In this document: positions 5,420 through 59,314 of the stretch, in pieces
Numbering within the stretch: position 1 is the first letter of the stretch
How the letters are laid out: each line of letters starts with the position of its first letter
Assembly: GCA_002049455.2 (NCBI GenBank)
Contig: KV919116.1
Location: 1-64,000 of the forward strand
Source: Porphyra umbilicalis
Taxonomy: Eukaryota; Rhodophyta; Bangiophyceae; Bangiales; Bangiaceae
Direction of reading: 5' to 3'
Length of the DNA stretch: 64,000 nt
The notes under the pieces: generated by a model
What the model saw: only the letters and a program-made list of their open reading frames with translations
Databases searched by the model: none
Told to the model about the DNA's origin: nothing
Position numbers and translations under genes: made by a program

Positions 5420-5912
5420 GCAACAGTCTGGCAGGCTGCTAGCGGGAGGGCTCACATGCCGCAACCAGGTTGCCCCACCGAGTCCCAAAGGTGACACACA
5501 CTGCCCATCCAAAGCGCACAGAGCGCGCTTTTTTCATCACAAGCTAGCGGCATGTGGCACACTGTCGCGGGCGGCGTGGGCACATCGGGCGTGGAGGGAA
5601 CAGAGCGATAGCTGGCGCCGCGCACGCAGCCGAAAGTATCTCCTTTGTTTTGGCAGAGCCGCCACGGGCGCCACCACCCACGCGTCCACGAGCAGCGCCC
5701 CGCCCGGCACTTGCCGACTGCACCACCGGAGCGGGGTCTCGATGGAGGCGTCCCAGTGGGCGCCCGCCGCCGCGTGCGCGTCGCTGACGAGCACCGTCCA
5801 GAGGGCGACGGCGGCGGCGGAGGTGGCGGCGGCGGCCACCTCGACGGCCGCGTCGACCGAGCCGCCGCCATTGGCCGTGGTAGCGGCGGCGGGGACGACC
5901 GCACCGACCGGC

Positions 5913-5957
<45 letters not shown>

Positions 5958-6350
5958 ACCGTCGCCATGGCAGCGGCGAGGGCCTTGAAGTCCCCCACGC
6001 CAACGGCGCCGCTGCCAAGCGGTACTGCGCCGACGACGAGGAGGGTGCGCCCCCCCCCCCCCCCCCGCCCACGCGCCGGGGAGCAGCCCGCGACCGCCGA
6101 CGCCCCCCCCCCGGCGGCGGCACGTGCGCGACGCGGGCGCCGAGCGCCTCCCCCCCGTGCGCCCGCCGCCGCCCCCTCCGCGCCCCCGCCCAAACCCATA
6201 CCCCCCATCCCAATACCACCGTCCTCGTCCTCCTCCTCCATCGATCCGCCGCCGTCGCTCGCCGGCGACGGAGACCACCGGCGCTCCACGTGCCCCAACC
6301 GAACGTCGACAAAGTCGGGTGGCACCCGCCCGCCGTCGCCGTCGGCGGAA
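5420..6350 (-). pseudogene. Repeated gene family, copy A (5'-truncated, uninterrupted C-terminal part)
   Basis: An open minus-strand frame reads from about 6367 to 5537. It contains an acidic patch (MEEEDEDGGIGMGGMGLGGG), a poly-Pro stretch and Ala-rich hydrophobic segments (VDAAVEVAAAATSAAAVALW). The same DNA recurs as copy B (9.9-10.8 kb), copy C (30.7-32.1 kb) and copy D (46.5-46.8 kb). Copy A lacks the N-terminal part: similarity to B and C stops at about 6350. It keeps the region that the 14.4-kb element interrupts between copies C and D, and so shows the empty site (CGCCCACTG on the minus strand, 5754-5762). The product family is not recognised. The hydrophobic Ala-rich stretches could be membrane segments. 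Confidence 0.6.
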
Positions 6351-6662
6351 TGAGGGTCGTTCCGCACCGGGCGGTATCGTCGGTAGACCGGTACGCGGAA
6401 TATACCGCGTACCGGTAAAACAAGAACCAGACATACCGTTGTTTACCGGTCGTACAGACGATCCGGTATTACTGAGCTGAACCAAATGATTGGGATTGGG
6501 GCCAGTTGGTCAGGGAGTTGTGTAGATCGGTGACGTTTAAATCCTGAGAGACTGTTCAACAAATCTCACAACTTGCCAGCCCCAGCCGCCGGCTTGCTTT
6601 TTCTGCCACCCCTGCCCAGCAGCCACGAAGACAGCAGGTCTCCCACTACCGACGTCCTAGCT
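6351..6662. other. Spacer with a 30-bp palindrome
   Basis: There is no gene here. A perfect inverted repeat lies at 6387-6416 (arms ACCGGTACGCGG/CCGCGTACCGGT, 6-bp spacer AATATA), with further CCGGTA fragments nearby. It lies just outside the truncation point of copy A, so it may be the end of another element. Confidence 0.6.
6387..6416. repeat. Perfect palindrome, 12-bp arms
   Basis: Arms ACCGGTACGCGG and CCGCGTACCGGT are exact reverse complements around AATATA. Confidence 0.9.
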
Positions 6663-30713: not shown

Positions 30714-32114
30714 CTGACCAGAGAGCCTTGGTGACGGACCGCATCGGTGATTGATGCGTATTGGTTGTGATTTACGTGTGTGTGTCAAGTGTTTCTTTTG
30801 CTGGAGGGGCCGGTGGAGAGCAGCTATGGGCCCTTATCTTTGCTTGTCATCTGCAGCTCCAACAGGCCTCGTCGCCCGACATTAAAGAGGGCGCAAGCGC
30901 AACGAACAGCCTTGGCGCGAGCCACCTCGGCCGCCCCACCGTCGCAGTGCACCGGCTCTCGCCCGGTTCACGCCGAGACGGCCGCCTGCAGCCGGCTTAA
31001 TGCAGCGCGTCGTGGGCCCTCTGGCCTACAGCCGGCACCTCTTTTGTTCCATTGCCTCCTCTGCTGCGCCACTCCCGGATTTCTTGATGAGAGTAGCGGC
31101 GTCGCTTCCCCTCCCGGCCGCCGCTGCAGCCGCGGGGGGTGCCACCTGCCCCCGACGCCTCGCCCCCCCCCTGCATGCGGTGCCAATGGTGAAACGTGCC
31201 TCCCTTCACCGTTGCCTGACGGTCGCCGCCCCCACTCGCTCCCCCTGCTCCATCGCCGCATTGGCGGCTGCCGCCGTCACGGACGGCGTGCTCAACGCCC
31301 CGCCGGCGGTGCAGGGGCTTTTCTCGGCGCTACCAAATCTCTGCGCCCTACATTGCCGCGACGGTCGAGAGGGGACCCGCTGCCGCCGCCGCCGCCGCCG
31401 CCGCCGCCGCGGTCGGCAGCGGCGGCAGCAGCGGCGACAGCAGCGGCTACGGTGGTGGCCCCAGTAGCCAAGTGGCCACGTGGCGGCGGCGGAGGGCGCG
31501 CCCCCCGCGCGACCGTCTTGATCATTCCGCCGACGGCGACGGCGGGCGGGTGCCACCCGACTGTGTCGACGTCCTGTTGGGGCACGTGGAGCGCCGGTGG
31601 TCTCCGTCGCCGCCAAGCAACGGCGGCGGATCGATGGAGGAGGAGGACGAGGACGGTGGTATTGGGATGGGGGGTATGGGTTTGGGCGGGGGCGAGGAGG
31701 GGGCGGTGGCGGGCGCACGGGGGGGAGGCGCTCGGCGCCCGCGTCGTGCACGTGCCGCCGCCGGGGGGGGGGGGCGTCGGGGGTCGCGGGCTGCTCCCCG
31801 GCGTGTGGGCGTAGGGGGGGGGGGGGGCGCACCCTCCTCGTCGTCGGCGCAGTGCCGCTTGGCAGCGGCGCTGTTGGCGAGCGGAACTTCAAGGCCCTCG
31901 CCGCTGCCATGGCAATGGTGCCGCCGCCGCCGCCGCCGCCGCCGCCGCTTCCGCCGCCGGTCGGTGCGGTCGTCCCCGCCGCCGCTACCACGGCCAATGG
32001 CGGCGGCTCGGTCGACGCGGCCGTCGAGGTGGCCGCCGCCGCCACCTTCGCCGCCGCCGCCGCCCTCTGGACGGTGCTCGTCAGCGACGCGCACGCGGCG
32101 GCGGGCGCCCACTG
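30714..32114 (+). pseudogene. Repeated gene family, copy C (5' part, interrupted by the KDZ element)
   Basis: It begins at the shared AGAGAGCCTT and holds the upstream region, ATG 31000 (MQRVVGPLAYSRHLFCS), the hydrophobic N-terminal region, the acidic patch (MEEEDEDGGIGMGGMGLGGG) and the Ala-rich segment. It stops at ...GCGCCCACTG (32114), where the 14.4-kb element begins. The rest is copy D at 46504. Compared with copy B it has an extra A near 31336, and it shifts again at a G run near 31765, so its frame was probably already broken. Copy B is an inverted duplicate 20 kb away. Confidence 0.65.
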
Positions 32115-32179
32115 TGTGAAGGAATCGGGCGCATCACCATTCACGGGTGCCGGCTGTGAATGTCACCTGTGAATGCTGT
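32115..32179 (+). repeat. Left terminal inverted repeat of the KDZ element
   Basis: It begins TGTGAAGGAATC. The inner part holds ATTCACGG, GCTGTGAA and CTGTGAATGCTGT in the same order and spacing as the right end. By hand about 42 of 65 positions match, the inner 40 much better than the outer 25. TGTGAATG-like words recur in direct and inverted orientation and could be transposase sites. Confidence 0.75.
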
Positions 32180-32532
32180 ATTGACCAATCAGAGAGTGTT
32201 ACGGCCCCCATCTGAGCGCTCAGGCCCCCACCAGACACGACGACGTGTCGCAGGCACAGCCTGCCTGTTGCCTGTCTGACGCCAGACACGAGCGGCTCTG
32301 ACACGCTCAGACATGAGGCCAGTTCAGACAACAGCTCGGGCCCGGGCCCCAGACATCGAGCACGCCCGAGATCCACTGGCCGACAGTGGCTGCTGACGAC
32401 CCCCTCCTCGGCCGCCGTGCGGGCACCCCTGTCACCACCGTCGTCCCCGTCGCGGTCGCCACCGTCGCCCCCGTCCCCACCGCGGCCGCCCCGGGCGGCG
32501 CGGGCCGGCGGGGGGCCGCCGCCCCCCCCCCG

Positions 32533-33390
32533 GGTGCGCGGTTGGCCCCTGTCGTTGTGGGCGTCTACGCCGTGTACGCCGTGGTGGTTGTGCTCCTGTG
32601 CGATCCGCGGCGCGGCACGCTCGGCGCCGCGGGCGCGATTTTAGGCGCCCTTTTTTTTGGGCGCTTTTTTTTTTTCGGCGGCGGCTGCTGGCGGCGGTCC
32701 GCCGCCCACGCCCCCGGTGCGTGGCTCGTCCCTGTCTGTGCGGACGTCTACGCCGTGGTGGTGGTGTGGCTGTGCGATCCGCAGCGCGGCACGCTCGGCA
32801 CCGCGGGCGCGATTTTGGGCGCGCTTTTTTTTGGGCGCTTTTTTTATCGGCGGCGGCTGCCGGCGGCGGTCCGCCGCCCCCGCCCCCGGTGCGTGGCTCG
32901 TCCCTGTCTGTGCGGACGTCTACGCCGTGGTGGTGGTGTGGCTGTGCGATCCGCAGCGCGGCACGCTTGGCGCCGCGGGCGCGATTTTGGGCGCGCTTTT
33001 TTTTGGGCGCTTTTTTTATCGGCGGCGGCTGCCGGCGGCGGTCCGCCGCCCCCCCCCCGTTTGCGAGGTTGGTCCCTGTTGGTGTCGACGTGTACATCGT
33101 GGTGTTGGTGCGGCTGTGCGATCCGCAGCGCGGCACGCTCGGCGCCGCGGGCGCGATTTTGGGCGCGCTTTTTTTTGGGCGCCATTTTTATCGGCGGCGG
33201 CTGCCGGCGGCGGTCCGCCGCCCCCCCCCCGTTTGCGAGGTCGGTCCATGTTGGTGTCGACGTGTACATCGTGGTGTTGGTGCGGCTGTGCGATCCGCAG
33301 CGCGGCACGCTCGGCGCCGCGGGCGCGATTTTGGGCGCTCCTTTTTTCGGGCGCCTGCTGGCTGCGGTCCCCCGGTCGTTGCGCGGCGTT
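32533..33390. repeat. Five tandem units of about 172 bp inside the KDZ element
   Basis: Units begin near 32533, 32717, 32889, 33059 and 33231. Each contains TGTGCGATCCGCAGCGCGGC, GGGCGCGATTTTGGGCGCGC, a T run and the palindrome GGCGGCGG-T-CCGCCGCC. Spacing of the GATTTTGGG word is 174, 172, 172 and 172 bp. In one frame a unit reads as a hydrophobic segment (DVYAVVVVWLCDPQRGTLG, AGAILGALFFGRFF), but 172 is not a multiple of three, so a coding role is doubtful. The array lies directly upstream of the transposase ATG. It may hold promoter or transposase-binding sites. Confidence 0.85.
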
Positions 33391-33419
33391 GTCCATGTGG
33401 TGCCTCGTGGATCTCGGCG

Positions 33420-36400
33420 ATGGCGGATGGGGAAGGCCTGGCCCGACCGGCTGCGGAATGGGTGAGCTTCCCGTTTGTCGGGACGCAGGCGGCTGCTCAA
33501 GAAGTCGCAGCTCGAGTCGCCGCGATCCCCCCCTGCTCGTCACCCGGCCGTGTCGTTCATCTTCATCGAGGTCTCCTCTCTGGAGGACAAGTCGCTCGTG
33601 GGTGGTCAACCATGCTTGAGAATGCGCGACGTGGAGGAACCACGGCGCTGACCGGTCACACCAGCCGTCGACGACGTGCCGCGGGCCGCCGCCCGCCTGT
33701 TGCCGCCAAGCCGTCACCGCGCTCTTCTGGGGTGATTGAAGGAGATGGCGGGGACCACAACGCGCAGGGTGGTGGTCAGCCCCCCGCTCCGCGAGCTCCC
33801 CGTGATCACTCACGTCGCAATGCCGTGTTGGTGGAGGATTTCGTCGAGGAGGCACTCATAGCGTGCATCCGCCGCACCTGTGGGCTGCCGTCGTGCCGCC
33901 CCATGACCAAGCAAACGTCGGTGGTCACGGCTCGGGTCATTGGCGACAAGAACTCCCGCTCCCGCGCCATCGTCCTACGGCAAGGATCGGGCAAGCGCGA
34001 CTTGAGCATCCTGTGGGTGTCGAGCCGCGACGGCTTTTTATGCTCGTGCTTCTCCGGCCACGAGAACGCGCTGTTCTTCTCTGCGTCATCGAGGAGTACG
34101 ACGTGCGTGCACACCGTGGCGTTGCGCAACGCGCTGTCATCATCGAGCGTGAGCACCGAGACGTTTTGCGCACGCATGCGCCTCCGCGCTGACGCCGCCG
34201 ATTTTGCCGTGTGCGAGGACTATGGGTCGGCGGTCGTGTGGTCTGTGCTTTATCACTCGGTCTTCTCCCTCGTCACGTTCAACAGCTGCAACGTCGCCAC
34301 GTGCATCGCACCGTGCTGCCGGCGCTTCCGCGGGCGATGCGGCCACGTGCGAGTCGCGCGGGACCGCCTCGGACCGGACGGAATCAACGACATCAAGTTT
34401 GGGACGGCACCAGCGGCCGTCAAGGCCAGAGTCGATGCTCGGCGCCCGCCCCCCCGCATGTACGACAAGGTTGTCAACAACGAGGAGGAGGACGAGGGCC
34501 TCGAAAAGCTCGCCTCCGACACTATGCGCGGCCCCCTCGACTCGGCGCCGGTGGATCTGTCTGCAAGGACGTCTCGCAACTTGCTGCCTTGTGCCGGGGA
34601 GCTCATGCAAGGGGAGGTCTGGAACCGCACGGCGGATTGGAGGACACTGGTCCAGCAACGGCCGGCTGTTGACGCGGCGGCTAACGCGCAGCAGCTGGCA
34701 GCTGTCCTCGGTGCCGCGTGCAGTGGCGGTGTCATCCGCGACACGCGAGACGCGCTGGTCGAGCCCTATTGTGGGAGCTGCGGCCAGAAGCGAGAGGCTC
34801 GGCACAAGGTGCACTCGGAGCCGGCCCTTTTGACCACGCATCATCCGACGGCCGCGGCACTCAAGGTATGTTGCTTTGCGCTCTTGCTCCTGTTGTTTGC
34901 TTGCATGTTTCTTTGCCGTTGCGTGTGGATGGGCGTGCTCATATGCGTTAGTCCACTTCCCACTGGCATCAGGCAACTGACGTACTGGTGTTGATGTTGT
35001 GTCTTGTTCTGGTATGTCTCTGCCGCTGGATTTATGCAGGTGCTGGTCGGGCGGTGGGCCTGCAACACCAGAACGTGCAAGCGCATGGTTGAATACGACG
35101 GGACTGCAGACGGCCTCTTCTCTCTGCAGCGGCGCAACAGAAACGGGAGGTGGCTGCTGTTCACCCGGGGGTTGATCGACGAGCTGCTGTCGTTCATCAT
35201 TTCGGGGCGGACCACGTACACTGCGGCCACCCGCCACCTTTCCGCGGACGTGCTGTCGTTTGGCCTCAGGCGCCAGGACGTGGTGAAGCTCGGTACGGCG
35301 GCGATCAAGACGTTCCGCATCCCCGCTGAAACGGCCCGCTGCCCGCTGTGCGGCCCGAGCCCTGAGTTCATTGTGATTGACGCTCAGGCGCTCGGGTGCT
35401 CCGACCCAGATGACACCACTCCGTTCCGCCCCGCGGAAGATTGCCCGGTCCTGAACATCCCGGCGCCCAAGCTATGCGTTATCGAGCGGGCCCCTCTCCG
35501 GGCGACCATATCCCAGGTGCTCCGCACGGCGACGCCATTGACAACCCCGCAAGTAGATCTGCTCCGGTCGTGGCACGACACGATTGGCGCACCCGGCCGC
35601 TCCACGCCGGAAGCAGCGGCGGCGGAGCTGTTCTTCCGGTTCTTCCCCTTTGGCCGCGACCAGCCTGCCAATGCGCCCATGCCGGGTGGTGTTCCTTGTG
35701 CAAGTGGCAGTAGCGCGCCGACTAGTGCTGCTGAGACGCTCGCCGAGGGCGAGCGGCCGACAAAGCGCGGCCGGCTTAGCGCGGCCGGCGGCTTGGAAGC
35801 CGCCCTGCGTTTGGACAAGGACGGCGCCGTGGTGCTCGGTGGCAAGGGGCCGCTGGCAAAGATGCCGACGGCCACATGGCGCAACAGGTCGGGGCACTGT
35901 GCCCCTGCGTTTGATCGCTATCCCAGCGACGACGACGGCCTCTGGATTTGCGTGCGCCCCTTCCTCCAAGCGATGCTCACGGAGACGGTGACGGGAATGT
36001 TCCAGTCTTTTGACGAACGAGCGGTACGGTTGCTTGCCAACACGCTCCGGCTTATGCGGCGCGGCGCGTGGCGGTCGCTTACCCAGGCCGTCGACGGCGT
36101 CGGTTTTGTGGCCGGCTTTCTCGGCTGGTTCGCCAACCTTATCGATGAGGAGCCGAGCATGCGGAAGGCCGTCGGGGTGCTGCTACTCGCCACAGTCGAC
36201 GTTGAGAAGTATGTCGACGACACGTTCAAGGCGGTGGCTAACAACAAGGAAACGTTGGCGGCGGGATGCAAGAACGCGGCGTACTGCAACCGGTGGAAGG
36301 GGAGGCCGACCACGGCTGACTACAAGCGGTGGAGGGCTGAGCAAGAGCACCTGGGCGACATGGACGAGGACGACCCGCTCGTTAGCTTCGAGTTCTTCGC

Positions 36401-38570
36401 TGGTCTACCTCGCGTGCGGCCTGGTATTACGGACTCGGAGGCGGCCAAGCGCCGCGTGAAGTACCGCGGAAAGGACTGCCACAAGGCGGACCTGGAGGGG
36501 GAAGGCGACGCCTGCAACAAGGCATTCTCGGTGAAGGCGGGCTTGACCCAAGGCGTGTTTAATGTCGTTTGTCCACACGTGATTACGTTGGGTTTTCGCT
36601 GCTTGTTCCGCGCCGAGAGCGTGGGGGAGGCGTTGTCTATTGTGCTCGAGCGGTTTGCCAAGCTGCCCAAGGCCGTCTTTTACGACGTGGCATGCAAGCT
36701 GGACAAGAACGCGATGAGGCGGGTGAGGCAGCTGATGCGCGCGCACGGGGTGAGGTGTATACTCGACAGACCCCACTCCATCACACACTCATGCTCTCCC
36801 ATCTACATGCCCGACGAGTGCCTCGGGACAACTGCCGGCGTCGCCACCCAAGCAGCAGAGGTCTCCCGCTCGATCGCCGTCGTCAACAGGACGAGCCTCG
36901 CCTACATGTCGCCGGCCACCTACACGCACCATCGCATGGTGCAGGTGGCCTTTATGAACCTGCGCAAGCTGTATCGGCTGCACGCCGGCAACGGAGTGGG
37001 CGAGAATGACCACGTGCCCCTCGCCCCCTTCTTCCACAAGAAGATTTCGCACCAGTGCGAGCGCGTCTCCGTCTGCACTTGCGCTTCGGCAGCGGACAAT
37101 GGTGGCAAGGACGCCTTCGAGCAGCAGGTTGGCGAAGGCACCGTGCCTGCAGGTGGACAGACTGAGCCCGCGGGCCAAGGAGCAGGGGCTACTGCTGTTG
37201 CGGTGGCCGCACAAGTCCCTAGTGGGAGAGAGGCGGACGCGGCTGCTGCCGCCGCCGCCGATCGGGGAGCGCAAGATCCGTGGGGCTTCGAGGAGGGTGA
37301 AGGCGAGGTCCTTGTGCGAGCCGACCCCAACGCAGACTTGGGTGCGGCGGCGGGGGTGGCCCTCACGGACACGCCGGGCGTGGACAACGCCGACGGGTTG
37401 ATCGTGCTACGCCACACGCTGCTGTTGGCGGACTTCAACGCTTGGGCGGCGGCTCGGCCCACCCGCCACGCAGTACTCGACACCCGACCGGTCACGCGGG
37501 CGCAGCGCAAGCTCGTGGACGAGCTCACAGGCCGGCCACTCTCCAAGGCCGTCCGCCCGACCAACAAGGCCCGCATCCTGCTCTGCGGCTCCGATTTCCA
37601 CCGTCTGCGCGGCGAATCGTGGCTCACCGACGAGTTGATGAACTCCTACGCGGCGCTGATCAACTACCGCGCAAGAGCAGCTGCGGGCGTTGACGGGGAG
37701 GTGCCGTCGGTGGGCGAGAATAAGGTGCTCCGGGCGGTCATGTTCAACACTTTCTTCTTCTCTCGGCTGTCGGCGCGCAACGGCTGCGTCGACTACAACG
37801 GCGTCCGTCGCTGGGGCGTCAAGCTCGGGCTGGACTTGACGGCCATCGACGTCATCTTGGTGCCCATTCTCGTGTCGGGCTCCCACTGGGTGCTCGCTGC
37901 CATTGACGTCGCCCGGCGCGAGTTCAACTACTTCGACTCGCTGTCGGTGAGCGACTCCCATGGCGTTGTCGTGCTACTGATGCAGTGGCTGCACGACGAG
38001 GTGGACGCGCGGGTGGGGCGGGACGTGGCGGCCGCCTGGAACGTGTCCGAATGGCGCGTGGTGGTAGACCCGCTCCTGCCGCGGCAAGAGGACGGCGGCA
38101 GTTGCGGGATTTTCGTCTTGTCTGCTGCCAACTGCTTTTCCCTTGGAGCTCCGCTGGCCTTCTCCCAGGCGGATGTTGTGACTGTGCGCCGCCGCGTTGC
38201 TCTTTCTCTCTTTTTCGATGACCTTTCCTTTCCTGATGACATCCCCCTCACAAGTTGCGTGAGCGGGACGACGACGCCGGCTATGTCGGACGACGAGGCG
38301 ATGAGCGGCACTGACGGGCTGGAGTTGGAGGTCAACAACAAGGCGTCGGACGACGCTGAGGACACGGGGGCCGAAGAGGAGAAGTGCGGGGACGCGGAAG
38401 ATGAGGACAATGGGATGGACATGGTGGAGGACGGGGCGGTGGACGACGGGGGGGGGTCGGACGGTGGGGAGGATGCGGGGTTGGACGATGCGGAAGCTGA
38501 GGGGGTGGACGATGGGGAGGAGGACGGGGCGGTGGAGGACTACTATGACTTGGTAGATGACGGCCGTTAG
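33420..38570 (+). CDS. KDZ transposase with N-terminal SWIM zinc finger and C-terminal Ulp1 (C48) protease domain
   Basis: This two-exon gene (33420-34865, 35040-38570) encodes 1658 aa. The ATG follows the tandem array. Residues 208-231 form a SWIM finger, CxCx18CxH (FLCSCF...TTCVHTV). A second Cys cluster (CNVATCIAPCC...CGHVRV) and two CxnC pairs (YCGSCG, CNTRTC) follow. The KDZ-like core includes RCPLCGPSPEFIVIDAQALG (D596), VVCPHVITLGFRCLFRAESV and KAVFYDVACKLDKN (D1031), then DRPHSITHSCS. The C-terminus is a C48 SUMO-protease domain with H1431 (GSHWVLAAID), D1448 (YFDSL), Q1498 and C1504 (RQEDGGSCGIF), then an acidic tail (about residues 1575-1658). Zisupton-type transposons and HMGXB3-like proteins are the closest families I know. 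Expected role: DNA cleavage and joining, with a self- or host-directed SUMO/ubiquitin-like protease activity in the nucleus. Confidence 0.82.
34866..35039 (+). other. 174-nt intron in the KDZ transposase gene
   Basis: Donor GTATGT follows TAAALK, and acceptor TTTATGCAG precedes VLVGRWACNT. Phase 0. Without splicing the first frame runs into an unlikely hydrophobic tail and stops at 34994. The intron is less GC-rich than the exons. Confidence 0.8.
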
Positions 38571-40493
38571 GCGGGAGAGGGCTTGGCCGGGGTGCATGGT
38601 ACCATGGGTGGGGTGGCGGGAGGCATGGATTGGGGTGTGCTGGACGGGGAGGAGGACAACATCGTCGATGGCCGAAGTGAGGGCGGCGGGTGGGTGAGGG
38701 AGGACTCCTCTCAGGAAGATGTGGGCGAGGGGCTGGATAAGGACTGTTGATTGCCGTCTCGTGTACACTCTTCTACGTTTCAGGGCAGCAGGAAAGCAGA
38801 GCGGCGTCGCCTCCGCCTTCACAGCATCGCCTCTGTCTTTAATGAGCAGGAGCGCACATGAAAGAGAGCGGGACCAGTACGCGCTCAGTGCCCTGGGGAA
38901 GAAGAAGCCCAGCTCGACGGCGGGAACACAACTGGGCCCAAGTTCCGATAATGCCTCAAATTCTTCTGTCGTAAATGCCTCGTCATCACATCAAGCGGAT
39001 CACCCGGGAGATACAGTGCTGCCATCCGCTGCCATGACGCGAACACGAGATAGCCACCGATGTCGGCCCCGGTCCTGTCGACAGTCGGGACAGAAGTCCA
39101 TTCGATTTACGTCCTGGCCGGTAGCATTTACCGTTCAAGTCACCCACCGAGCTGCATGCGCGCTCCGAGATACAGCGTGGGCAGAGTCCCGGACGACGCC
39201 TTTGGTCGCCAGCACCCTGCTCTTGCTGCGGGACATGCACGCCTTGCTCTCGCTATGCAACAAACCAGACGCATTCAACTGGTGCTTTGTTATTAGGTGG
39301 TACCGTTTCAGCAAACAGAACGCGCGACAGCCAGACGACACCGGGCGACGCACCCGACGTTCTGCATAGAGTGTGCATCGCTGACTTGCCCCAATGTGGT
39401 GGGGTTCGAGCGTTCGGAGTGTGCAAAGCAGTGGTCGCTGCGTTTGATCGTCGCACCCGCACCGCTTCCCGATGTACTGAGTACAGCGGTATGAGTCCAG
39501 TGGCGCGGATGGGAACAGACGGGGACCATCTGCTGATTCTAGAACTGCGAGCAAACACGAAAGTGTGACAGAACAGCATGCCCTCAGCATAGCGATTGTG
39601 GTGCTCGGTTACACTCTTCGTACAACCAGTTGTACAGTGCTTCGACCGGATGATGCTGTGCTTGGCAGTCGTACTTTATGTCGGCTCCTGGTGCCCTCGT
39701 GATGGAAAGGGGCTTAGATGTGCTGGCCAGTACCTTGGCAGCTCTTGCTTGCCTGCCGGAGATTCACATGTGCTGCTGCACACTGGCACGTATTGAAACA
39801 CACACACACCCAGACATCACCTGTTTCTGGAGCATGCAGCACTCCCAAACGATTTGCGACGACTACTGCCTATGCTCAGATTGTTGGTCTGCTTAGCACC
39901 TGTCAATCCCATGAGAAGTGCATTTCTTCTCTGGGAACGGCCTGCACCCAGACACTTCATTGCTATGAGCTTCATGTCAGTTTATGTGATCATGAAAGAC
40001 AGCGTGCACTCCCATGTATGTGCGGTCACATGCCCCTTGTTACCAACATCTGCGCCATCATCAGGCATCCACTTCGACCAGACAACGGCGTGGCAGCAGA
40101 GCACCTGCTCCAATTCACAGCTGCACCGCCGTCGCTGTAGCGGTGCACAGTCCAGAGAGTCTCACACAGTCCGTAGAGCTCTTTCCTCACAAGGCAATGC
40201 CGTTGACACTAACGAAGGCGGAAAAAGCGGGATACCTGGGTACAGGGCGCGGCGCCATGGCGGTCATCTCTAACCCTAGGTGAGATACCGTAACCCTAGC
40301 CTGGCGATCCGCACTGTTTTCTGTGGCTCCGGTGCTTCCACTCCAAGGGCTTTCGGGGGCCAATCAGGTACAGGGATCACGATCATGAGACACCCGAATT
40401 TAAACAAGTGGCCCGCATTGATATTATTCTCGAATATGAAGTAGCACCTGCTGCTTTGGCCTTGACGCGGGCGGCTGCGCTTCTGCGTTGGCA
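38571..40493. other. 1.9-kb interval within the KDZ element, no intact gene
   Basis: GC content is lower than in the flanks. It contains the interrupted minus-strand frame described separately, and an AACCCTAG pair around 40270-40300. TG-rich, AT-richer sequence fills 39600-40250, where I see no gene. Confidence 0.5.
38750..39590 (-). pseudogene. Decayed minus-strand frame within the KDZ element
   Basis: One minus-strand frame reads from 39590 to about 38750 with three stops: one near 39135, then two TGA codons close together near 39000. Protein-like segments are MDFCPDCRQDRGRHRWLSRV (a CxxC...H pattern) and DDEAFTTEEFEALSELGP followed by SCVPAVELGFFFPRALSAYW. These look like a once-functional Zn-binding protein. 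Alternatively the stops mark short introns. No family is recognised. Confidence 0.33.
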
Positions 40494-42659
40494 ATGGTGC
40501 GCGACACCGTCGTCGGCACTTGCATTATCCGACGGTTCGTCTCGACGCCATCGGCTTGGAGATGGCTAGTTGCCGACGTGGGCAAGGTTCTCTTGGACGT
40601 GGTTCATTTTGTACCCTCACCTGGTGCAGGTGGCCCGTCGCGCGCGGCTCCTCTTCTTCTTTCCGGTCGGGCGCCGGCGGCCGCCGCGACCATGAGCGGG
40701 TCGCGTGCGTCGCGCAGTCGGGCACCGGGTCCCCACGCACTGGGTGCGCGGCCGATGCTCCCTGCTAAGCGCTCCGCGGCTGTGTCCGTGAGTAGCGACG
40801 ACTCGACGTCCGCCTCGGACGACGACGTTGTCGAGCTCGACTGCTCGGCCGCCGCCCATGTGCCTCGCCCCATGACGCCCGGCTCCGGGGTGCGGTCTTC
40901 CTCCCGCGACGGCTTGCCCAAGCCGTTCAAGCCAGTGCCCGTGTGCAGACCGGCTCCGTTGCAGTGGCGCGCACTTCCACACAATGCGGCTCGTAGCAAT
41001 ACGAGCGCTTTCTCTTTAGCAAGGACGGAGGGCTCGTCATCGTCGGGCGAGCACTCGCGGATTTCAGGGCTGGCCGACGTGCTGGACGCCCTCCCTTTCC
41101 CAGCGGCTCCAAGGGCCGCAGGTGGTGCCGGCGGCTCGCGCGCGTGTGACCGCGCCAGCGGCGTTGTGGGATTACCAGGCCGTCGCGCACACGGTGGAGC
41201 TCGACCTCGTGGCAGTGCCGCTCACTCGGCATGTGCTCCTTCTGAACCACCTACAATTGGTCATCTGGCGGCCAGCGGCCGGTGGGGCGACGTGTGCGAG
41301 CAGCTATTTGCCCGCATCAACAGCGCCTTTGTGTCTGGCGGTCCGGGTGCGGGTAAGTCGACTCTGCTGCGGCGGCTACGCTCCTTCCTGGTTGAGCGCT
41401 ACGGGTCGGAGGGCGAGGTCGTTGTTGTGGCCCCCACCGGTACGTCCGCCAAGACGGCGGGCGGCATGACGTACCATTCCTTTTTTGGGTTTGGCCGTGA
41501 GTACGTGCCGCTGCGAGCGAATCCGAGGGAGGAAGCGGAACGCCTGCTGGCGACCGACCGCTACGGGCCTATCAAGCTTCGTCTGCGGCAGGTGCGCGCG
41601 CTGCTGCTGGACGAGATCTCCCTCGTGTCTGCCGCCAACTTCAGCGTCATGTTTGAGCTGCTCTCCGTCGTCCATTCGGACGCCCGGCCGTGCCTATGGT
41701 TTGCGTTCGGAGACTTTCTTCAACTCGGACCGGTCAAGGGCAAGATGGCCTACATGGCGCCATGCTGGAAGGTCCTGTTTGGCGACTGTTTTTTGGAGTT
41801 GACGGGCACCTTCCGGCAGCGCGACCCCGGCTTCATTCGCGCCATCCGAGACGCCAGGGTTGGCAACTGCTCCGCCGCGGTGCAGGAGCTGGTCGACGAC
41901 TGCCGGGTGGAGGATAGTGCGTATGACAAAATCAAGACCACCATCCTGCACCTGACCCCGCGGCTTAAGACCGTCATCCAGCACAACCGGGACTGCCTGG
42001 CCCGCCTGGCACCGGATGTGGCGCCCAAGGTCTTCACCGCAGTGGACACCGTGCAGCTGGACCCCGACAGGGACATGTCGCGCACGACGCCCCGGCTGGA
42101 GAGCGTGAGTGCCAAGTCGAGGGCAGCTGCACTGGCCGACTGCGTCGCCTCGCCCTCGTTGGCGCACTGCCTCCACGCGCAAGTGATGGTGATCACCAAC
42201 CGCAAGAAGGACTTGGGTGTCTGCCACGGGAGCATCCGCTGCATTGTGGCCTACGACGAGACGGACGGGAGCCCCATCGTGCGTTTGGAGAACCACGTGC
42301 TGCCGGCGGGCATTGAGCGCGGCTGCTGGGGGTTGCATGACGTTGGGGACACGTGGATCGAGGTGGCCTGCCCCCCCATCGACTTCACCGCGCGCGTCCT
42401 CGCGGCGCCGGGTGTTTTGGCGGTGCGCACGCAAGTGCCGCTGGTGCTGGGGTGGGCCAGCACGATACACATGTCCCAGAGTTTGAGTATCTCCGAGGCG
42501 GTATTGGACTTGGCCGAGTGCTTCGAGGCAGGCATGGTCCACACCGCGCTGAGCCGTGTCCCGGACAAGGCGCGCTTGCACATCAAGTCATTTGCGGCGA
42601 GCCGTTTGTTTGCCGACCAGAGGGCTTTGAAGTTTTATATGGAGTGGCGACGCCTGTAG
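40494..42659 (+). CDS. Pif1-like SF1B DNA helicase carried by the KDZ element
   Basis: This 721-aa protein should unwind DNA 5'-3' in an ATP-dependent way. All core motifs are visible: Walker A GGPGAGKST (K288), motif Ia VVVAPTGTSAKTAGGMTYHS, Walker B LLLDEISLV (D373-E374), motif III WFAFGDFLQLGPV, motif IV-like LTGTFRQRDP, motif V LGWASTIHMSQSLSISEAVL and motif VI VHTALSRVPDKARL (R688). The N-terminal 270 residues are Ser/Ala/Pro-rich with an acidic patch. ATG 40494 is the first in frame. ATG 40692 (MSGSRASRSR) is an alternative, and an intron ending near 40630 (CCTGGTGCAG) is possible. No Rep/HUH domain is fused, so this is not a Helitron RepHel. It ends 68 bp from the convergent 974-aa gene. 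Confidence 0.85.
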   Translation: MVRDTVVGTCIIRRFVSTPSAWRWLVADVGKVLLDVVHFVPSPGAGGPSRAAPLLLSGRAPAAAATMSGSRASRSRAPGPHALGARPMLPAKRSAAVSVSSDDSTSASDDDVVELDCSAAAHVPRPMTPGSGVRSSSRDGLPKPFKPVPVCRPAPLQWRALPHNAARSNTSAFSLARTEGSSSSGEHSRISGLADVLDALPFPAAPRAAGGAGGSRACDRASGVVGLPGRRAHGGARPRGSAAHSACAPSEPPTIGHLAASGRWGDVCEQLFARINSAFVSGGPGAGKSTLLRRLRSFLVERYGSEGEVVVVAPTGTSAKTAGGMTYHSFFGFGREYVPLRANPREEAERLLATDRYGPIKLRLRQVRALLLDEISLVSAANFSVMFELLSVVHSDARPCLWFAFGDFLQLGPVKGKMAYMAPCWKVLFGDCFLELTGTFRQRDPGFIRAIRDARVGNCSAAVQELVDDCRVEDSAYDKIKTTILHLTPRLKTVIQHNRDCLARLAPDVAPKVFTAVDTVQLDPDRDMSRTTPRLESVSAKSRAAALADCVASPSLAHCLHAQVMVITNRKKDLGVCHGSIRCIVAYDETDGSPIVRLENHVLPAGIERGCWGLHDVGDTWIEVACPPIDFTARVLAAPGVLAVRTQVPLVLGWASTIHMSQSLSISEAVLDLAECFEAGMVHTALSRVPDKARLHIKSFAASRLFADQRALKFYMEWRRL

Positions 42660-42727
42660 ATCAGTGATCATGTACTGGTTGTGGTATCTTCTTTTACATT
42701 GGCTCCGACATCATTCTCTACGCCACC

Positions 42728-45652
42728 CTATGACTTGTGTCGGGAACTGAGGAGGTCCAAAACGGAAGCGTGTGCATCGGCCAAGTCGGCATTAACGCGC
42801 GCGTGTCGCAGTCTTTGCTCCTCACGGAACTCAGAGGCGCTACGCACATGGGGCAGCGCCAAGCCGAGTGCATCAGCGCCACCTTCTGAGGGAGTGCCAG
42901 TGCGTAAAGCAGACGAATTAGCAAGAGGAGGAAGCGAGTGAAAGGTATGCAAAGATGGAAAAGATTGGTCTGGGGCAGCAGCCGCTCCATTGAAGCCACC
43001 ATGTACAGCAGACGGGTTGATCGGGGCTGGTGCGCTTCGTGGTCTTGTCCCCGCGACTGCCGTGGCACCAGCCGTCGGCGGACCACTGGGAGTAGGCATG
43101 GCGCCCAATGGGGCCGGTGCGCCAGCAATACCTGCAAGAGCACCAGCAGCTTGGAGTGGTGGCACACCGGCATCGGCGCTTAACGCGGCTGTGACCGCGG
43201 GAGCAACGACGAGCCGGACCAAGCCAGGATGACCACAGACTTCGGCGCCTGCGGCTGCTGCATTAGACACGCCGACGCCGCCATGTGTCGGTGCACCGCC
43301 GCCAGCGCCACTGGAAGACGCGCCAGCAGCTCCAGTCCCCGCGGCGGCACCGGCGCTGGCCGGCGCAGGCCTCTTGCTTCTTTTCACCACAGCACCCTTG
43401 GAGGAAGCTGCTCGCGCCCGCTTGTCAATGGGACGGGGTGGAAGAGCTCCCGCCGCTTGTGCCCTTGAGCGAGCCGGGGGGCGCCGTGATGATCTTGACA
43501 AAGTAGCCGTGGAGGTGCCCGACGGTGGTGCAGCAGCCCGCACAGAGGCAGACCCCCCTGCACTTGACGAAGGTGCCACAGCCGGGGACGTCGACGCTCC
43601 CCTTGGCGTGGCGTGGGTGTACGCTTTGGCGTTGCGGGCGCGTACGCGCGCGGCACGATTGTTCTTCTTGATGGCCGTATCCTCGTTGTCCAGCGCCACC
43701 TCCATCTCGGCGTACTGCTGCGAAAGGTCCACAGGCTGGTCGTTGGGGGGGGCAGGATTGGTTTGGGAGAGCGATTGAGAAGCATGAAGGTCGGAAGAAG
43801 CTCCAGGAGGACAGTCGGGTGCCACGGGAGCTGATATTCCCGACGTGTTGAACTCGTGGCATGAAGCCGACAACAAAGACGCGTGCTTGGGGACGGTAGC
43901 GCGGCCCGCAGAAGCGAGCTGCGCGAGCGTCGTCCCGAAGTCCTCCTCCTTGGTCGCCAGCAACAGCATGCACGCCACCACGACGGGGAGCCGCATCGGC
44001 GCCCTGCCCCAGATCCGCGGCACCATCTCAAAGGGGACAAGGGCGTTCTTGGGGAAAAAGCGGGCTGACCGGACGGACAGGCCCGCAATGGTGTCGTTGA
44101 TTCCCTTCATGTCTACCAAGATGACCCACCGGGAGGCGACGCATTGCCGATGGCGGTTGAACGTGTGCGCCACAGTGCCGGCCGGCGGAACGGAGTTGGC
44201 GTTTGGAAGGCCATCCGGGGCGCGCCACTGGGGCCACCACCCATCCGTCCGCAAGCCGAGAGCCATCCGGTCGCCCCTGATGCCCTTCGGAAACAGCTTG
44301 CCGTTCGACTTGAGGGCCGGGCGTGAAGACGAGCGGCCGAGCACGAGCACGCTGTCGTCGAGTAGCTGGCGTAGCACAGCCATGCCATCAATGCGGTCTT
44401 GGAGACCCGTCAACACGGCCTTGACAGTCTCCAATGCAAAGCTTGTCGGCACGACGGTAGGCTGCCGGTCGTGGATGACGTGGGGGGGGGAGGCCGAGCT
44501 TCCTCCGTCGTCCTCCTCCTCCTCGTCTGCGTCAATACTGCCCTCCATCGATGGCGCCGCGCCCGCGGGTGCTGCGCCGCCACGAGCGCCGATCTCAGCA
44601 TCTGCTGCAGCACCGCTCTTGTCTTGCGGAAAGTTGGCAAGGGGGTTGGCACCGTCCAGCTGGAACTCAATCCCCCCCGTAGGTAGCGGCGTTTCTTGAC
44701 CCTCCGCTGCACCTGCAGCTTCGGCTGCTGGTGCCCCATCGGTCGCGGTCGTGGCATTGACCGACGTCACCACCGATGCCGACGGCCCGCCGGACCGACC
44801 ACCAGCATTGGCGGCGCCGAGCGCAAACGGCGGAGAAAGATTGGGGAAAGACATTCCCCCCTCGGGAAGGGCGCTCTCTTCCCCCTCCTCCTCCCGTTGC
44901 ATGGGCTCATCAATCGGGGGGAGCCCGTCCTTGTCGTCGCCCGTCGCGTCCACTCCCGCGACACCGCCCGCACCCGCGCCTGCGCTCGCGCCCGCGCCCG
45001 CGCCCGCGCCCGCGCTGGTGCCCCCACCCATCGGCGTCACGTCGACGCCGCCCCGTGGAAGCACCACGATCTCGTCCCCGTCCGTGGTTTGGTCGGCCGT
45101 CGTTTGCACGTTGCCCAATAAAATGGCGTTGGCCTCGGCCAAGGCGTCCACCTCCATATGGCGGTAGGCAAAGGACAAACCGACGTTAACGATACGCTCG
45201 GCGTGGGCGTTGCTGTCGGAGAAGAAGCCAAGGCGGTCCACCACGCGAATCCAGCGGTGCGTGGGCGCCTCCCGGGGGTTGTCCGACACCTGCATACGGC
45301 TGACCGCAGAGTGCAGTGACGCGCCGTGTGGTGCCAGGTGGGAGTCGAGCTTGGAGGACGCCTCAAACACGTTGCGCAGCAGCGCCGCCAGGAAGACTGT
45401 CTGCTTGTCGTCCGAGATCCCGAGGTTCTCAAAGAAGCTCACGTAAAGCCGGCGCTCGGCCTTGCTCATCTCCGGCTCCTCGGGCACAATCGGCACCCGC
45501 TGGCCCGTCGTGCCCGGCCTCGGTTCCCCCGGCGCACTTGGTCCCGGCTCCGCCACCGCGCTTGGCCCTGGCTCTCCGAGCGTGCTCATCTCCGCCTCCG
45601 CGACCAGGCTCCGCTGCGGCTCCGCGGCCGTGATCGGCTGCGGCCCGGTCAT
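42728..45652 (-). CDS. 974-aa protein of unknown function in the KDZ element
   Basis: The start is ATG 45652 (MTGPQPITAAEPQ). I recognise no family. An N-terminal globular block, about residues 60-185, reads AERRLYVSFFENLGISDDKQ, HRWIRVVDRLGFFSDSNAHA and ERIVNVGLSFAYRHMEVDAL. A long Gly/Ala- and Asp/Glu-rich linker follows. A second globular block, about residues 390-580, contains FALETVKAVLTGLQDRIDGM, GDRMALGLRTDGWWPQW, HRQCVASRWVILVDMKGIND and RLPVVVACMLLLATKEEDF. The C-terminal part is basic and Ala/Pro/Ser-rich, then a helical tail (REEQRLRHARVNADLADAHA). It is tail-to-tail with the helicase, 68 bp apart. It is intact and inside the element's terminal repeats, so an accessory role in DNA binding or transposition is inferred. 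Confidence 0.6.
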   Translation of the reverse strand: MTGPQPITAAEPQRSLVAEAEMSTLGEPGPSAVAEPGPSAPGEPRPGTTGQRVPIVPEEPEMSKAERRLYVSFFENLGISDDKQTVFLAALLRNVFEASSKLDSHLAPHGASLHSAVSRMQVSDNPREAPTHRWIRVVDRLGFFSDSNAHAERIVNVGLSFAYRHMEVDALAEANAILLGNVQTTADQTTDGDEIVVLPRGGVDVTPMGGGTSAGAGAGAGASAGAGAGGVAGVDATGDDKDGLPPIDEPMQREEEGEESALPEGGMSFPNLSPPFALGAANAGGRSGGPSASVVTSVNATTATDGAPAAEAAGAAEGQETPLPTGGIEFQLDGANPLANFPQDKSGAAADAEIGARGGAAPAGAAPSMEGSIDADEEEEDDGGSSASPPHVIHDRQPTVVPTSFALETVKAVLTGLQDRIDGMAVLRQLLDDSVLVLGRSSSRPALKSNGKLFPKGIRGDRMALGLRTDGWWPQWRAPDGLPNANSVPPAGTVAHTFNRHRQCVASRWVILVDMKGINDTIAGLSVRSARFFPKNALVPFEMVPRIWGRAPMRLPVVVACMLLLATKEEDFGTTLAQLASAGRATVPKHASLLSASCHEFNTSGISAPVAPDCPPGASSDLHASQSLSQTNPAPPNDQPVDLSQQYAEMEVALDNEDTAIKKNNRAARVRARNAKAYTHATPRGASTSPAVAPSSSAGGSASVRAAAPPSGTSTATLSRSSRRPPARSRAQAAGALPPRPIDKRARAASSKGAVVKRSKRPAPASAGAAAGTGAAGASSSGAGGGAPTHGGVGVSNAAAAGAEVCGHPGLVRLVVAPAVTAALSADAGVPPLQAAGALAGIAGAPAPLGAMPTPSGPPTAGATAVAGTRPRSAPAPINPSAVHGGFNGAAAAPDQSFPSLHTFHSLPPLANSSALRTGTPSEGGADALGLALPHVRSASEFREEQRLRHARVNADLADAHASVLDLLSSRHKS

Positions 45653-46440
45653 CACCACTCAAGTGTAGGCCTATGCAAAAAAAATAGGCGGACAAAGACG
45701 AAAGCAAGTGTACAGTAGATGAGGACATGGCGGAGTCAGTGCCTGCAACAAGGACAAAAACATGAAACAAGAAAGAACAGGAGATGCACATAGCTGACAG
45801 GGGGAAGATGCAAAAGTGAGCATCCCAGATGGTCGACAACACGTACTTAGAAGCACGTCGACAACCGCTACCGACCCAATGATGCAGGGAACGGCGCAGG
45901 CGCCCCGCGGGGAGTACCAACCAGCATCAGCGATCCAAACCACCGGCGGAAGCGCCAGCGGTCACAATGGGTACACAGACAGGCGGCCAGCAGAGCACAC
46001 AACAATGATGCGAGTACAGCAGTGGAATAGGTGGGGGGGGGGAGGGCGGTTGACGGCGACCACGTGAGGAGCAAGCGATACGGTCGCCGGCAGCACCACG
46101 CACGCAGCCGCATGGCAGCCGACCAGTGGGGCGGGGTGGGTCGGGGGTGTCGTCGGTTGCCCGCCCGCCCCACCCCCCCCCCCACATGCCCGCCGGCCAT
46201 TCCATCGGTGGCCGAGGGCCACGACTGACGTCGGCCAGCGGCCAGATCGCACAAGCGCGCGCGACGTCGGCCGTGGTGCCGGGCCCCAATCCCCAGGGTC
46301 AGGCCGCGTCAATGATGCCTGATGGGACAGAAATCGGCGCTGAACGCAAAAAATCGCCAATCGCATTTGTCTGGGATGGGCTAATTGACCCCCCCCCCCC
46401 CCCCCCAGAGAGCCCCCCCCCCCCCCCCCCAGCAGCGAGA
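45653..46440. other. Right internal spacer of the KDZ element
   Basis: No gene is seen. Two long C runs lie at 46389-46407 and 46416-46430. The upstream region of the 974-aa gene lies here. Confidence 0.5.
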
Positions 46441-46504
46441 ACAGCATTCACAGCTGCTTTCACAGCGGCCAGCCGTGAATGCAATTTTCGGCGTTTCCTA
46501 TCTC
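46441..46504 (-). repeat. Right terminal inverted repeat of the KDZ element
   Basis: Read inward on the minus strand it has AGGAAACG, then ATTCACGG, GCTGTGAA and TGTGAATGCTGT. This is the same order as the left end, with one 1-nt gap. Confidence 0.75.
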
Positions 46505-46820
46505 GCCCACTGGGACGCCTCCATCGAGACCCCGCTCCGGTGGTGGAGTCGGGAAGTGCCGCGCGGGACGCCGCTCGTGGACGCGTGGGGGTGGCGCCCG
46601 TGGCGGCTGCCGAAACAAAGGAGATACTCTTGGCTGCGTGCGCGGCGCCAGCTACCGCTTTGTCCCCTCCACGCCCTATGTGCCGCGACAGTGTGCCACA
46701 TGCCGCTAGCTTGTGATGAAAAAAGCGCGCTCTGTGCGCTTTGGATGGGCAGTGTGTGTCACCTTTTGGACTCAGTGGTGCAACCTGGTTGCGGAATGTG
46801 AGCACTCCCGCTAGCAGCCT
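46505..46820 (+). pseudogene. Repeated gene family, copy D (3' part after the KDZ element)
   Basis: It resumes at CGCCCACTGGGACGCC and reads HWDASIETPLRWWSREVP through to CGM and a stop. This matches the C-terminal end of copy A (minus strand, 5420-5760), including about 20 bp after the stop. Together with copy C it is one gene copy split by the 14.4-kb insertion. The downstream end of the shared repeat is near 46820. Confidence 0.7.
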
Positions 46821-48540
46821 GCCAGCGCAGTGGGGCTTAGACCGTGTACCTTAGAGCAAGCCCAGCGGAGCCCGCCAACGCCATCGTCCCGATTTGGTAC
46901 ACGTCCATCTAAACGCAATTTTCGTTCGGGTCCCGATTCGGCCACACAGTGCATCGGCGAGCGGAAAGCACCCCAAACTGCGAGGGCTGACGCAGTACAG
47001 TCACATGGACACGCCTGTCACAAGGTCCTAAATACAAACCAAGTACGGAGCGGCCCCCCCTCCGCCCCCCCCAACTGCAGATTTTTGCAATGTGATCGGC
47101 GTTGTCGAATCCTACCTCGCGCGTCCCCCCCACGCCTCCGGCCGCGTCGTTGCCGCCGCCCCCCCCTCCCCCTCCGCCCACCCCTACACCCGCACCCCCG
47201 CGCGGGGCGTCGTTGCCAACCGAGGGTGCTCCCCGCTTGCCGGCAGCTGCAGCTGCCGGCCACCTGCAGGTGGCAGGCGCCGTGGCGGCGCCGTGGCGCC
47301 CGCGCGCCGCCGCTCTGCATGCCGCGCACCCTTGCTTCTCGGTCTTTCACGCCTCGGCGGCTTCCCCCCCCCCTCCCCCCCCCCCCCCCCCCCCCCCTCC
47401 GCGTCGGATCTGCCGACGCCGGGGCGGCGGCACCGTGCCATCAAGGCACGGCGGCGGGCCTTCAACGGCGCCGGGCGTGGCGGGGGTGTCAGCCCCCGGG
47501 GGCGGCGACGCGCCCGCGGGTCGGCCCCTGGCGGGCGGCGGCGGGGGGGAGGCGGGGCCTTGCACCGCCCGTGGCAGGTGGGCGAGGTAAGCCAACGCGC
47601 GCGCGCCGGCCAGTGGCGGTGGCGGCGCGCGCCGGCCAGTGGCGGTGGCGGCCCGCGGCGGTACCGCCGCCGCCGCCGCCGCCGCCGCCGCCCCCGCCGC
47701 GCAACGGCAAGTTGCTGCGAGAGGCGCGGCGCCGTCACGGGCGCGACCGGCGGCCCCGCGGGCGGCGCGCGTCCATGGGGCGCTCCCGTCCGCCGGCGGT
47801 GGCGCCGCCGCCGCCGCCGTGGCCGGCACCCCCCCCCCCCCCCCCCCCCCCTCCCCCCGCCCCCCACCAACGACCCGTGCGTCGTGGCCCGACGTCCCCG
47901 CCGGCGGCGCCTCCCCCCCGCCTCCCCCACCGACTCTGGCGCCGCGCGCGCTCGCGCGGTCTGGCGGCCGCCCGGGTGCGGGCGGGGCGGCTGCCACCCG
48001 CGGCGCCCGCCACCCGCCGCGGCGGTGGCTCCGTGTTGTCCGCGCTCGTGGCGCGGCTGAGGGGGGGGGGGGGGGGGGGGGCCCGCCGCCGCGGCGGGCG
48101 GCTGACATTGCGGCGGGGAGGCGGCGGGAGCCCGCCGCCCTGACGCTGCCGCCGTGGGCGGTGGGTGGGGGGATGCGCGCGCGCGCGTGCGCGCGGTGAC
48201 GTGGGCGCGCCGACCCGCCGGCGCGGCAGTGCGGGCCGGCGGGTGCGCCGCGTCGCGGCGGCGTTGGGCCGCGCCGGCCGTCGGGCGCGCCGCGCCCCCC
48301 GCGGTGGGCGGTGCCCGCCGCGTCGGTGGCGGCGCGCGCCCCATGAGCGCCGCCGTCCGCCGCTGTGCCGCGTTTCGCGGTGCCGCGTGGGCGGCGGCGC
48401 CGCGGCTCCCCCCCGCCCGCACGTGGGGGGGGGGTGCGTCGCCGACCGGCGGGTGGCAGTCGCCGCGCCCCACCGCCAGCACCCTGTTGGCGGTGACGGG
48501 GATGGGGTGGCGGGGGGCGGGCGCCTCATGGGCACTGGCA

Positions 48541-49023: not shown

Positions 49024-49124
49024 GCGGCACGGCGGGCGCCCGCCGTCCCCGCCCGCTCCCGCCCCTGCCATCAGCCCCGTGTGTCTGACGGCAACGGCGG
49101 GTACCGACGCGGCTGGTGGCGACA

Positions 49125-59274: not shown

Positions 59275-59314
<40 letters not shown>

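Follow-up and report, generated by a model that had tools for sequence, protein, structure and literature searches.

A 64,000-nucleotide stretch of the genome of the red alga Porphyra umbilicalis (positions 1 to 64,000 of contig KV919116.1, assembly GCA_002049455.2, forward strand; here called the window) very probably contains a complete and probably autonomous DNA transposon of the KDZ superfamily, 14,390 bp long, at positions 32115-46504. An initial annotation of the window had proposed a complete KDZ-type transposon in this interval. Our analysis supports this, since an uninterrupted paralogue of the target preserves the empty site, independent copies have 8-bp target-site duplications, the transposase has a KDZ domain, and the ends are common to long and short relatives in the genome. 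The KDZ identity and the complete, precise nature of the insertion both follow from these observations.

The insertion and its target

The element lies in a repeated sequence, of which three parts are relevant here.

5428..6353, minus strand: copy A, an uninterrupted paralogue of the target, with the empty site at 5754-5762 (alignment with the joined flanks and genome search)
31522..32114, plus strand: copy C, the left part of the interrupted target repeat (copy-A search)
46504..46825, plus strand: copy D, the right-hand portion of the interrupted target repeat; position 46504 is also the last base of the element (copy-A search)

The word CGCCCACTG is found at both junctions, at 32106-32114 and 46504-46512. 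When the two flanks are joined in silico they match copy A (6353-5428, minus strand) at 93% over 928 alignment columns and the alignment crosses the junction, while the left flank also aligns to window positions 10611-9915 at 97%. We searched the Porphyra umbilicalis genome (G000, 83.8 Mb in 665 contigs; its contig C665 encodes phycobiliproteins, one of which has phycocyanin beta chains as its nearest PDB entries) with copy A, scoring the best 40 of 94 candidates. In this search 31522-32114 corresponds to copy-A bases 1-600 and 46504-46825 to bases 592-926, an overlap of 9 bases. Among the matches scored, uninterrupted alignments across the site occur at six more places (C243, C344, three in C18, and C319), at 79-84%. 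The alignments are thus split in copies C and D and continuous in copy A and the six others, which indicates that the target is a repeated sequence and that this copy of it is interrupted there. The initial annotation had described a precise insertion, with the same word at both junctions and an uninterrupted copy A. Alignment of the ends with copy A confirms this, as the homology of either host flank ends at CGCCCACTG and copy A runs uninterrupted through that position.

The ends of the element and the length of the duplication

32115..46504, plus strand: the element, very probably a KDZ transposon, 14,390 bp (junctions, end alignments and duplications)
32107..32114, no strand: left 8-bp target-site duplication, GCCCACTG (junction alignment and end comparison)
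46505..46512, no strand: right 8-bp target-site duplication, GCCCACTG (junction alignment and end comparison)
32115..32178, plus strand: left terminal region, an imperfect inverted repeat with ATTCACRG / CYGTGAAT boxes at element positions 25, 40 and 53 (end comparison)
46443..46504, minus strand: right terminal region, an imperfect inverted repeat ending in TTTCCTATCTC, with boxes at element positions 14332 and 14359 (end comparison)

Searching the genome with both ends yielded ten more insertions in which both ends are present. The 8-bp duplication is exact in ten of these eleven (the window element, C20, C115, C36, C74, C129, C512, C290, C223 and a second C20 element), and in the exception, C143, it matches at 6 of 8 positions. 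A 9-bp match, as the initial annotation had implied, is exact in only four of the eleven. A C follows the TATCT position (TATCA in C106) in all 19 right ends read, namely that of the window, 16 in fetched stretches, and those of C223 and the second C20 element, whose ends and duplications were compared by eye. This C is kept even in copies that have A or G at the corresponding position of the left flank. The ninth base therefore belongs to the element, and the duplication is to be corrected from 9 to 8 bp (GCCCACTG).

The left end of the window element starts with TGTGAAGG and the other 11 left ends read start with CGTGAAGG (CGTAAAGG in C143, one of these 11), and the right end reads CTATCTC. 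Genome copies with the shared left end begin at 32116, except for C129, which begins at 32110, and those that reach the right end stop at 46502-46509. When up to three mismatches were allowed in a search with the end patterns, the left end matched at 13 places and the right end at 18, while the reversed control gave 0 for each. The ATTCACRG / CYGTGAAT boxes are common to both ends; there are six in the element and five of them start less than 60 bp from an end. The locus is repetitive and very GC-rich, which might favour a misassembly in which two parts of a repeated gene were joined to unrelated sequence, but we reject this as extremely improbable because the same ends, each time with an 8-bp duplication of their own, recur in independent copies on other contigs.

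Relatives in the genome

Seventeen other copies were assembled from 20 stretches: eight have both ends, eight have the right end only, and C284 has the left end only within the stretch fetched. For C91, the left end was looked for up to C91:109500 and none was found. Among the long elements, that of the window, two in C20 (14.7 kb and, for the second, 15.5 kb), one in C223 (14.5 kb) and one in C143 (17.9 kb) are complete with both ends. Non-autonomous copies are found at C36, C74, C129, C512 (2.0 kb) and C290 (2.6 kb). These short copies are 95.7-98.9% identical to C36 where aligned; they share only the ends with the window element and have no matches to its four coding blocks. A further non-autonomous copy of 2.0 kb, C115 (G000:C115:128936-142939), is 96% identical to C36 and is split near its right end by about 12 kb of other DNA. 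The two long elements of C20 (C20:354330-369010 and 369109-384644) belong to different subfamilies; they face each other head to head across a gap of about 98 bp, and each has an exact 8-bp duplication of its own. This arrangement may reflect local or preferred insertion.

Coding blocks

33420..34865, plus strand: predicted transposase exon 1, 482 codons from MADGEGL, with a SWIM-like CxC...CxH motif (alignment of relatives, dN/dS)
34866..35039, plus strand: predicted intron, GTATGT...CAG, with an in-frame TGA (same splice-site sequences in C20 and C143)
35040..38570, plus strand: predicted transposase exon 2, with the KDZ core (D502, D561, E619) and a Ulp1-type protease (H961, D978, C1034) (Pfam, alignment, structures)
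40440..42659, plus strand: predicted PIF1-type helicase in a 739-codon open frame, its upstream exon boundaries provisional (Pfam)
42728..45658, minus strand: open reading frame 4 (ORF4), 976 codons, convergent with the helicase (no Pfam family; homologues)
32494..33445, plus strand: tandem repeat of 4-5 units with a period of about 172 bp, lying before the predicted transposase start and overlapping it slightly (repeat listing)

Three large intact frames had been described in the initial annotation. There are indeed three genes with open frames, but these contain four conserved coding blocks, the transposase being divided into two frames by a predicted intron that holds an in-frame stop. Residues of the transposase are numbered here in the frame 35004-38570. 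The KDZ domain (PF18758) is matched by the window protein with E=7e-5 and, at E<=0.01, by 25 of 27 aligned sequences (best 8.3e-9), and it is present in the precomputed annotation of 11 of 85 homologues. In the 27-row alignment D502 is invariant and D561 and E619 are at least 90% conserved, which makes them candidates for the D, D and E of an RNase-H-like core. The Ulp1 domain (E=4.3e-28) is related to SENP1/Ulp1 structures. In KDZ superfamily elements the core is preceded by a SWIM or CxC zinc-binding region. The CxC...CxH of exon 1 is a candidate SWIM-like motif of this kind; exon 1 has no Pfam match. The tandem repeat near the predicted transposase start could be regulatory.

The helicase scores 33.7 bits with PF05970 (cut-off 25.9), AAA_30 scoring slightly higher, and has the Walker motifs GAGKST and LLLDEIS. 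ORF4 has no Pfam match in the window protein (E<=0.1) or in three relatives (E<=1) and no PDB sequence match better than E=0.4; its AlphaFold model has a mean predicted local distance difference test (pLDDT) score of 44.8, and the best Foldseek match (E=1.9) is meaningless. It has at least 15 homologues besides itself among the best 7,993 candidates by shared words that were scored. One record carries the Porphyra umbilicalis proteins BU14_0219s0028, a helicase, and BU14_0219s0029, a relative of ORF4, and in C129 a helicase match and an ORF4 match are side by side.

In 13 comparisons with C20, C91 and C143, where the block is present, pairwise ratios of non-synonymous to synonymous substitution (dN/dS) are 0.16-0.37 for all four blocks (exon 1, 0.21-0.26; exon 2, 0.16-0.32; helicase, 0.21-0.28; ORF4, 0.33-0.37), these being plain ratios, with dS near 1 and stop codons excluded. 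Ratios in this range argue for selective maintenance of every block during the divergence of these elements.

A conserved cassette

Grouping of the 54 transposase matches gives 35 loci; the best 39 of 735 candidates were scored, so that the counts are lower bounds. Compared with all 72 helicase rows and all 48 ORF4 rows, 33 of the 35 loci have a helicase downstream on the same strand within 16 kb, and 31 have it within 10 kb. None has a downstream helicase in the opposite orientation, and one has a helicase upstream within 10 kb; by chance 0.017 helicase hits would be expected within 10 kb per locus. At 30 of the 35 loci the helicase is followed by ORF4 on the opposite strand, in the same order and orientation as in the window. 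A count on manually selected rows agreed with this. The exceptions are C312 and C257, with no helicase match, C442, where the helicase is near the contig start, and C400 and C342, with no ORF4 match. The lowest identities to the window proteins are 48% for the transposase, 44% for the helicase and 31% for ORF4. Conversely, 16 of the 48 ORF4 rows have no transposase within 20 kb among those scored, and 11 of these 16 have a helicase within 6 kb. In metagenome data, some records of equal length carry two of the three cassette proteins, which is suggestive only. More distant helicase matches, of 31-33% identity, were found at C230, C172, C24 and C342, with weak ORF4 matches nearby in C230 and C172; they may represent earlier-branching KDZ lineages that carry this cassette as well.

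The conservation of the cassette suggests that the helicase and ORF4 are components of the transposition apparatus, not passengers. In such a mechanism the spliced transposase would bind the repeated ATTCACRG boxes at both ends, the D502/D561/E619 site would cut, and the ends would be joined to target cuts staggered by 8 bp, in a cut-and-paste manner. The fused Ulp1-type protease may act on a SUMO-like modification, carried either by host proteins or by the transposase itself, the PIF1-type helicase may help in the excision, strand separation or repair of so long an element, and ORF4 might be a DNA- or protein-binding partner.

Points against and alternative explanations

Several observations weigh against this interpretation. 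The KDZ score of the window protein (23.1 bits) is below the Pfam cut-off of 26.6, the catalytic triad D502/D561/E619 is one that we infer from conservation, and the AlphaFold model of the transposase has a mean pLDDT of 57.9, with low confidence in the KDZ core. The roles of the helicase, the protease and ORF4 are likewise those that we infer, and the limits of the dN/dS ratios given above apply. The inverted repeats, which the initial annotation had described as imperfect and of about 65 bp, are present and imperfect at both ends but weak, with 17 of the first 32 bases agreeing ungapped. In a few copies homology runs past 32115 or 46504, by at most 5 bases (C129 on the left, C115 on the right), which might have placed the limits of the element elsewhere. 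Because the flanks of the copies differ, these extra bases look like chance matches, and the limits stand. The insertion had also been thought probably recent. The intact duplication and open frames are in keeping with this, but the nearest full-length relative with both ends is only about 70% identical in the transposase, and genome searches with the left end, the right end and the transposase found no near-identical copy and no close copy showing recent movement. Finally, identities to the window correlate moderately across the 29 other cassettes (Spearman 0.40 for transposase and helicase, 0.43 for transposase and ORF4, 0.53 for helicase and ORF4; 0.46, 0.62 and 0.69 in 27 of them, partial matches blurring both counts). 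As the correlations are only moderate, an exchange of modules between cassettes is possible.

The same moderate correlations could be taken to mean that the helicase and ORF4 are hitch-hiking cargo that is not needed for movement, and in the available text of PMC12477816 giant brown-algal transposons carry accessory genes, mostly of unknown function. Cargo, however, would be expected to vary between copies, while the cassette here is nearly constant and its blocks are constrained, and we therefore consider this explanation rather doubtful. At the other extreme, the red-algal KDZ lineage may need a four-function machine made up of a DDE transposase, a SUMO-type protease, a PIF1-type helicase and the new family of ORF4, and may move in a helicase-assisted or partly replicative way instead of by plain cut-and-paste; this is a speculation that we regard as unlikely.

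A third possibility is that the element is composite, an element with a helicase, such as a Helitron, and another gene having been inserted later into a KDZ element. PIF1 helicases are known from Helitrons, and nested DNA does occur in the family, as in C115; inner ends were sought in the repeat listing of the window. But the order and orientation are the same at 30 of the 35 loci over the whole range of identities given above, and dN/dS is below 0.4 in all coding blocks. With a constant cassette and constrained blocks, a recent nested insertion of the helicase is rejected. Nesting is altogether very unlikely, and what it may leave is an old, fixed nested origin. The whole element is not a Helitron, in which a Rep/HUH nuclease is joined to the helicase and no target duplication is made: there is no Rep/HUH domain among the Pfam matches, and the 8-bp duplication is present. 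Nor is it an EnSpm/CACTA element. These have a 2-3 bp duplication, CACTA-like ends and an EnSpm transposase, whereas the duplication here is 8 bp, the ends are CGTGAAGG (TGTGAAGG in the window) and CTATCTC, and the domain is KDZ.

Comparison with known elements

The following comparisons refer to the available text of the papers cited. An 8-bp target-site duplication is described for Zisupton (PMC12730594), and the 8 bp expected of the KDZ superfamily are found in the window element and, for 10 of 11 insertions exactly, in the family as a whole. KDZ1 of Cryptococcus neoformans is about 11 kb long with 241-bp terminal inverted repeats and 8-bp duplications, while KDZ2 and KDZ3 gave duplications of 4-8 bp (PMC12810828). 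The red-algal element resembles KDZ1 in its KDZ core, putative zinc-binding region, 8-bp duplication and large size. The Cryptococcus elements are described with KDZ and CxC1 domains, in contrast to the weak inverted repeats, fused Ulp1-type protease, PIF1-type helicase and ORF4 found here, and neither helicase nor Ulp1 is mentioned in the main text of that paper. KDZ elements reach 30.3 kb in Ectocarpus, and one of 31.7 kb has moved in Chlamydomonas (PMC12477816). These giant elements are likewise algal and very long, and giant families there carry extra genes; in the available text the word helicase is confined to the title of one reference, which concerns a chromatin protein. The initial annotation had considered the element much larger than a typical DNA transposon, but its size is normal for KDZ (up to 31.7 kb; PMC12477816, PMC12810828).

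Helicases are known from other DDD/E transposons. KolobokH and Kolobok-1_CCri carry one, in one case in a red alga and on the other strand (PMC9587614), but they differ in having a Kolobok transposase, a RecQ rather than PIF1 helicase and a 4-bp TTAA duplication. Giant EnSpm elements of red algae with several accessory genes have been described in the Bostrychia genome paper (cited in PMC12477816); these too are giant DNA transposons with accessory genes, of another superfamily, and the likeness is one of description only. In the open literature searched, which the founding KDZ papers lie outside, we found no KDZ or Zisupton element joined with PIF1 or with a helicase and Ulp1, no DNA transposon combining Ulp1, helicase, SWIM and transposase, and no paper on EnSpm elements in the Porphyra umbilicalis genome. 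The size and duplication of the element are thus ordinary for KDZ, and what appears to be new is the conserved cassette of a helicase and a fourth protein, a variant of a known element type.

Other features of the window

Outside the element, a 978-codon open frame at 13801-16737 (minus strand), with a weak DUF1280 match below the Pfam cut-off, is possibly another mobile element. Malectin, IPT/TIG and sorbosone-dehydrogenase-like domains occur in two large proteins, at 49116-53012 (plus strand) and 57785-60952 (minus strand), which are probably surface or secreted proteins of the host.

Significance

The element offers a defined substrate for studying how very long DNA transposons move, since its ends and empty site are established and both short non-autonomous copies and candidate helper genes are at hand, and it allows one to ask whether the helicase and SUMO-type protease belong to the transposition machinery. 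It also represents a well-delimited red-algal lineage of KDZ elements, in which ORF4 is a new protein family to be characterised.

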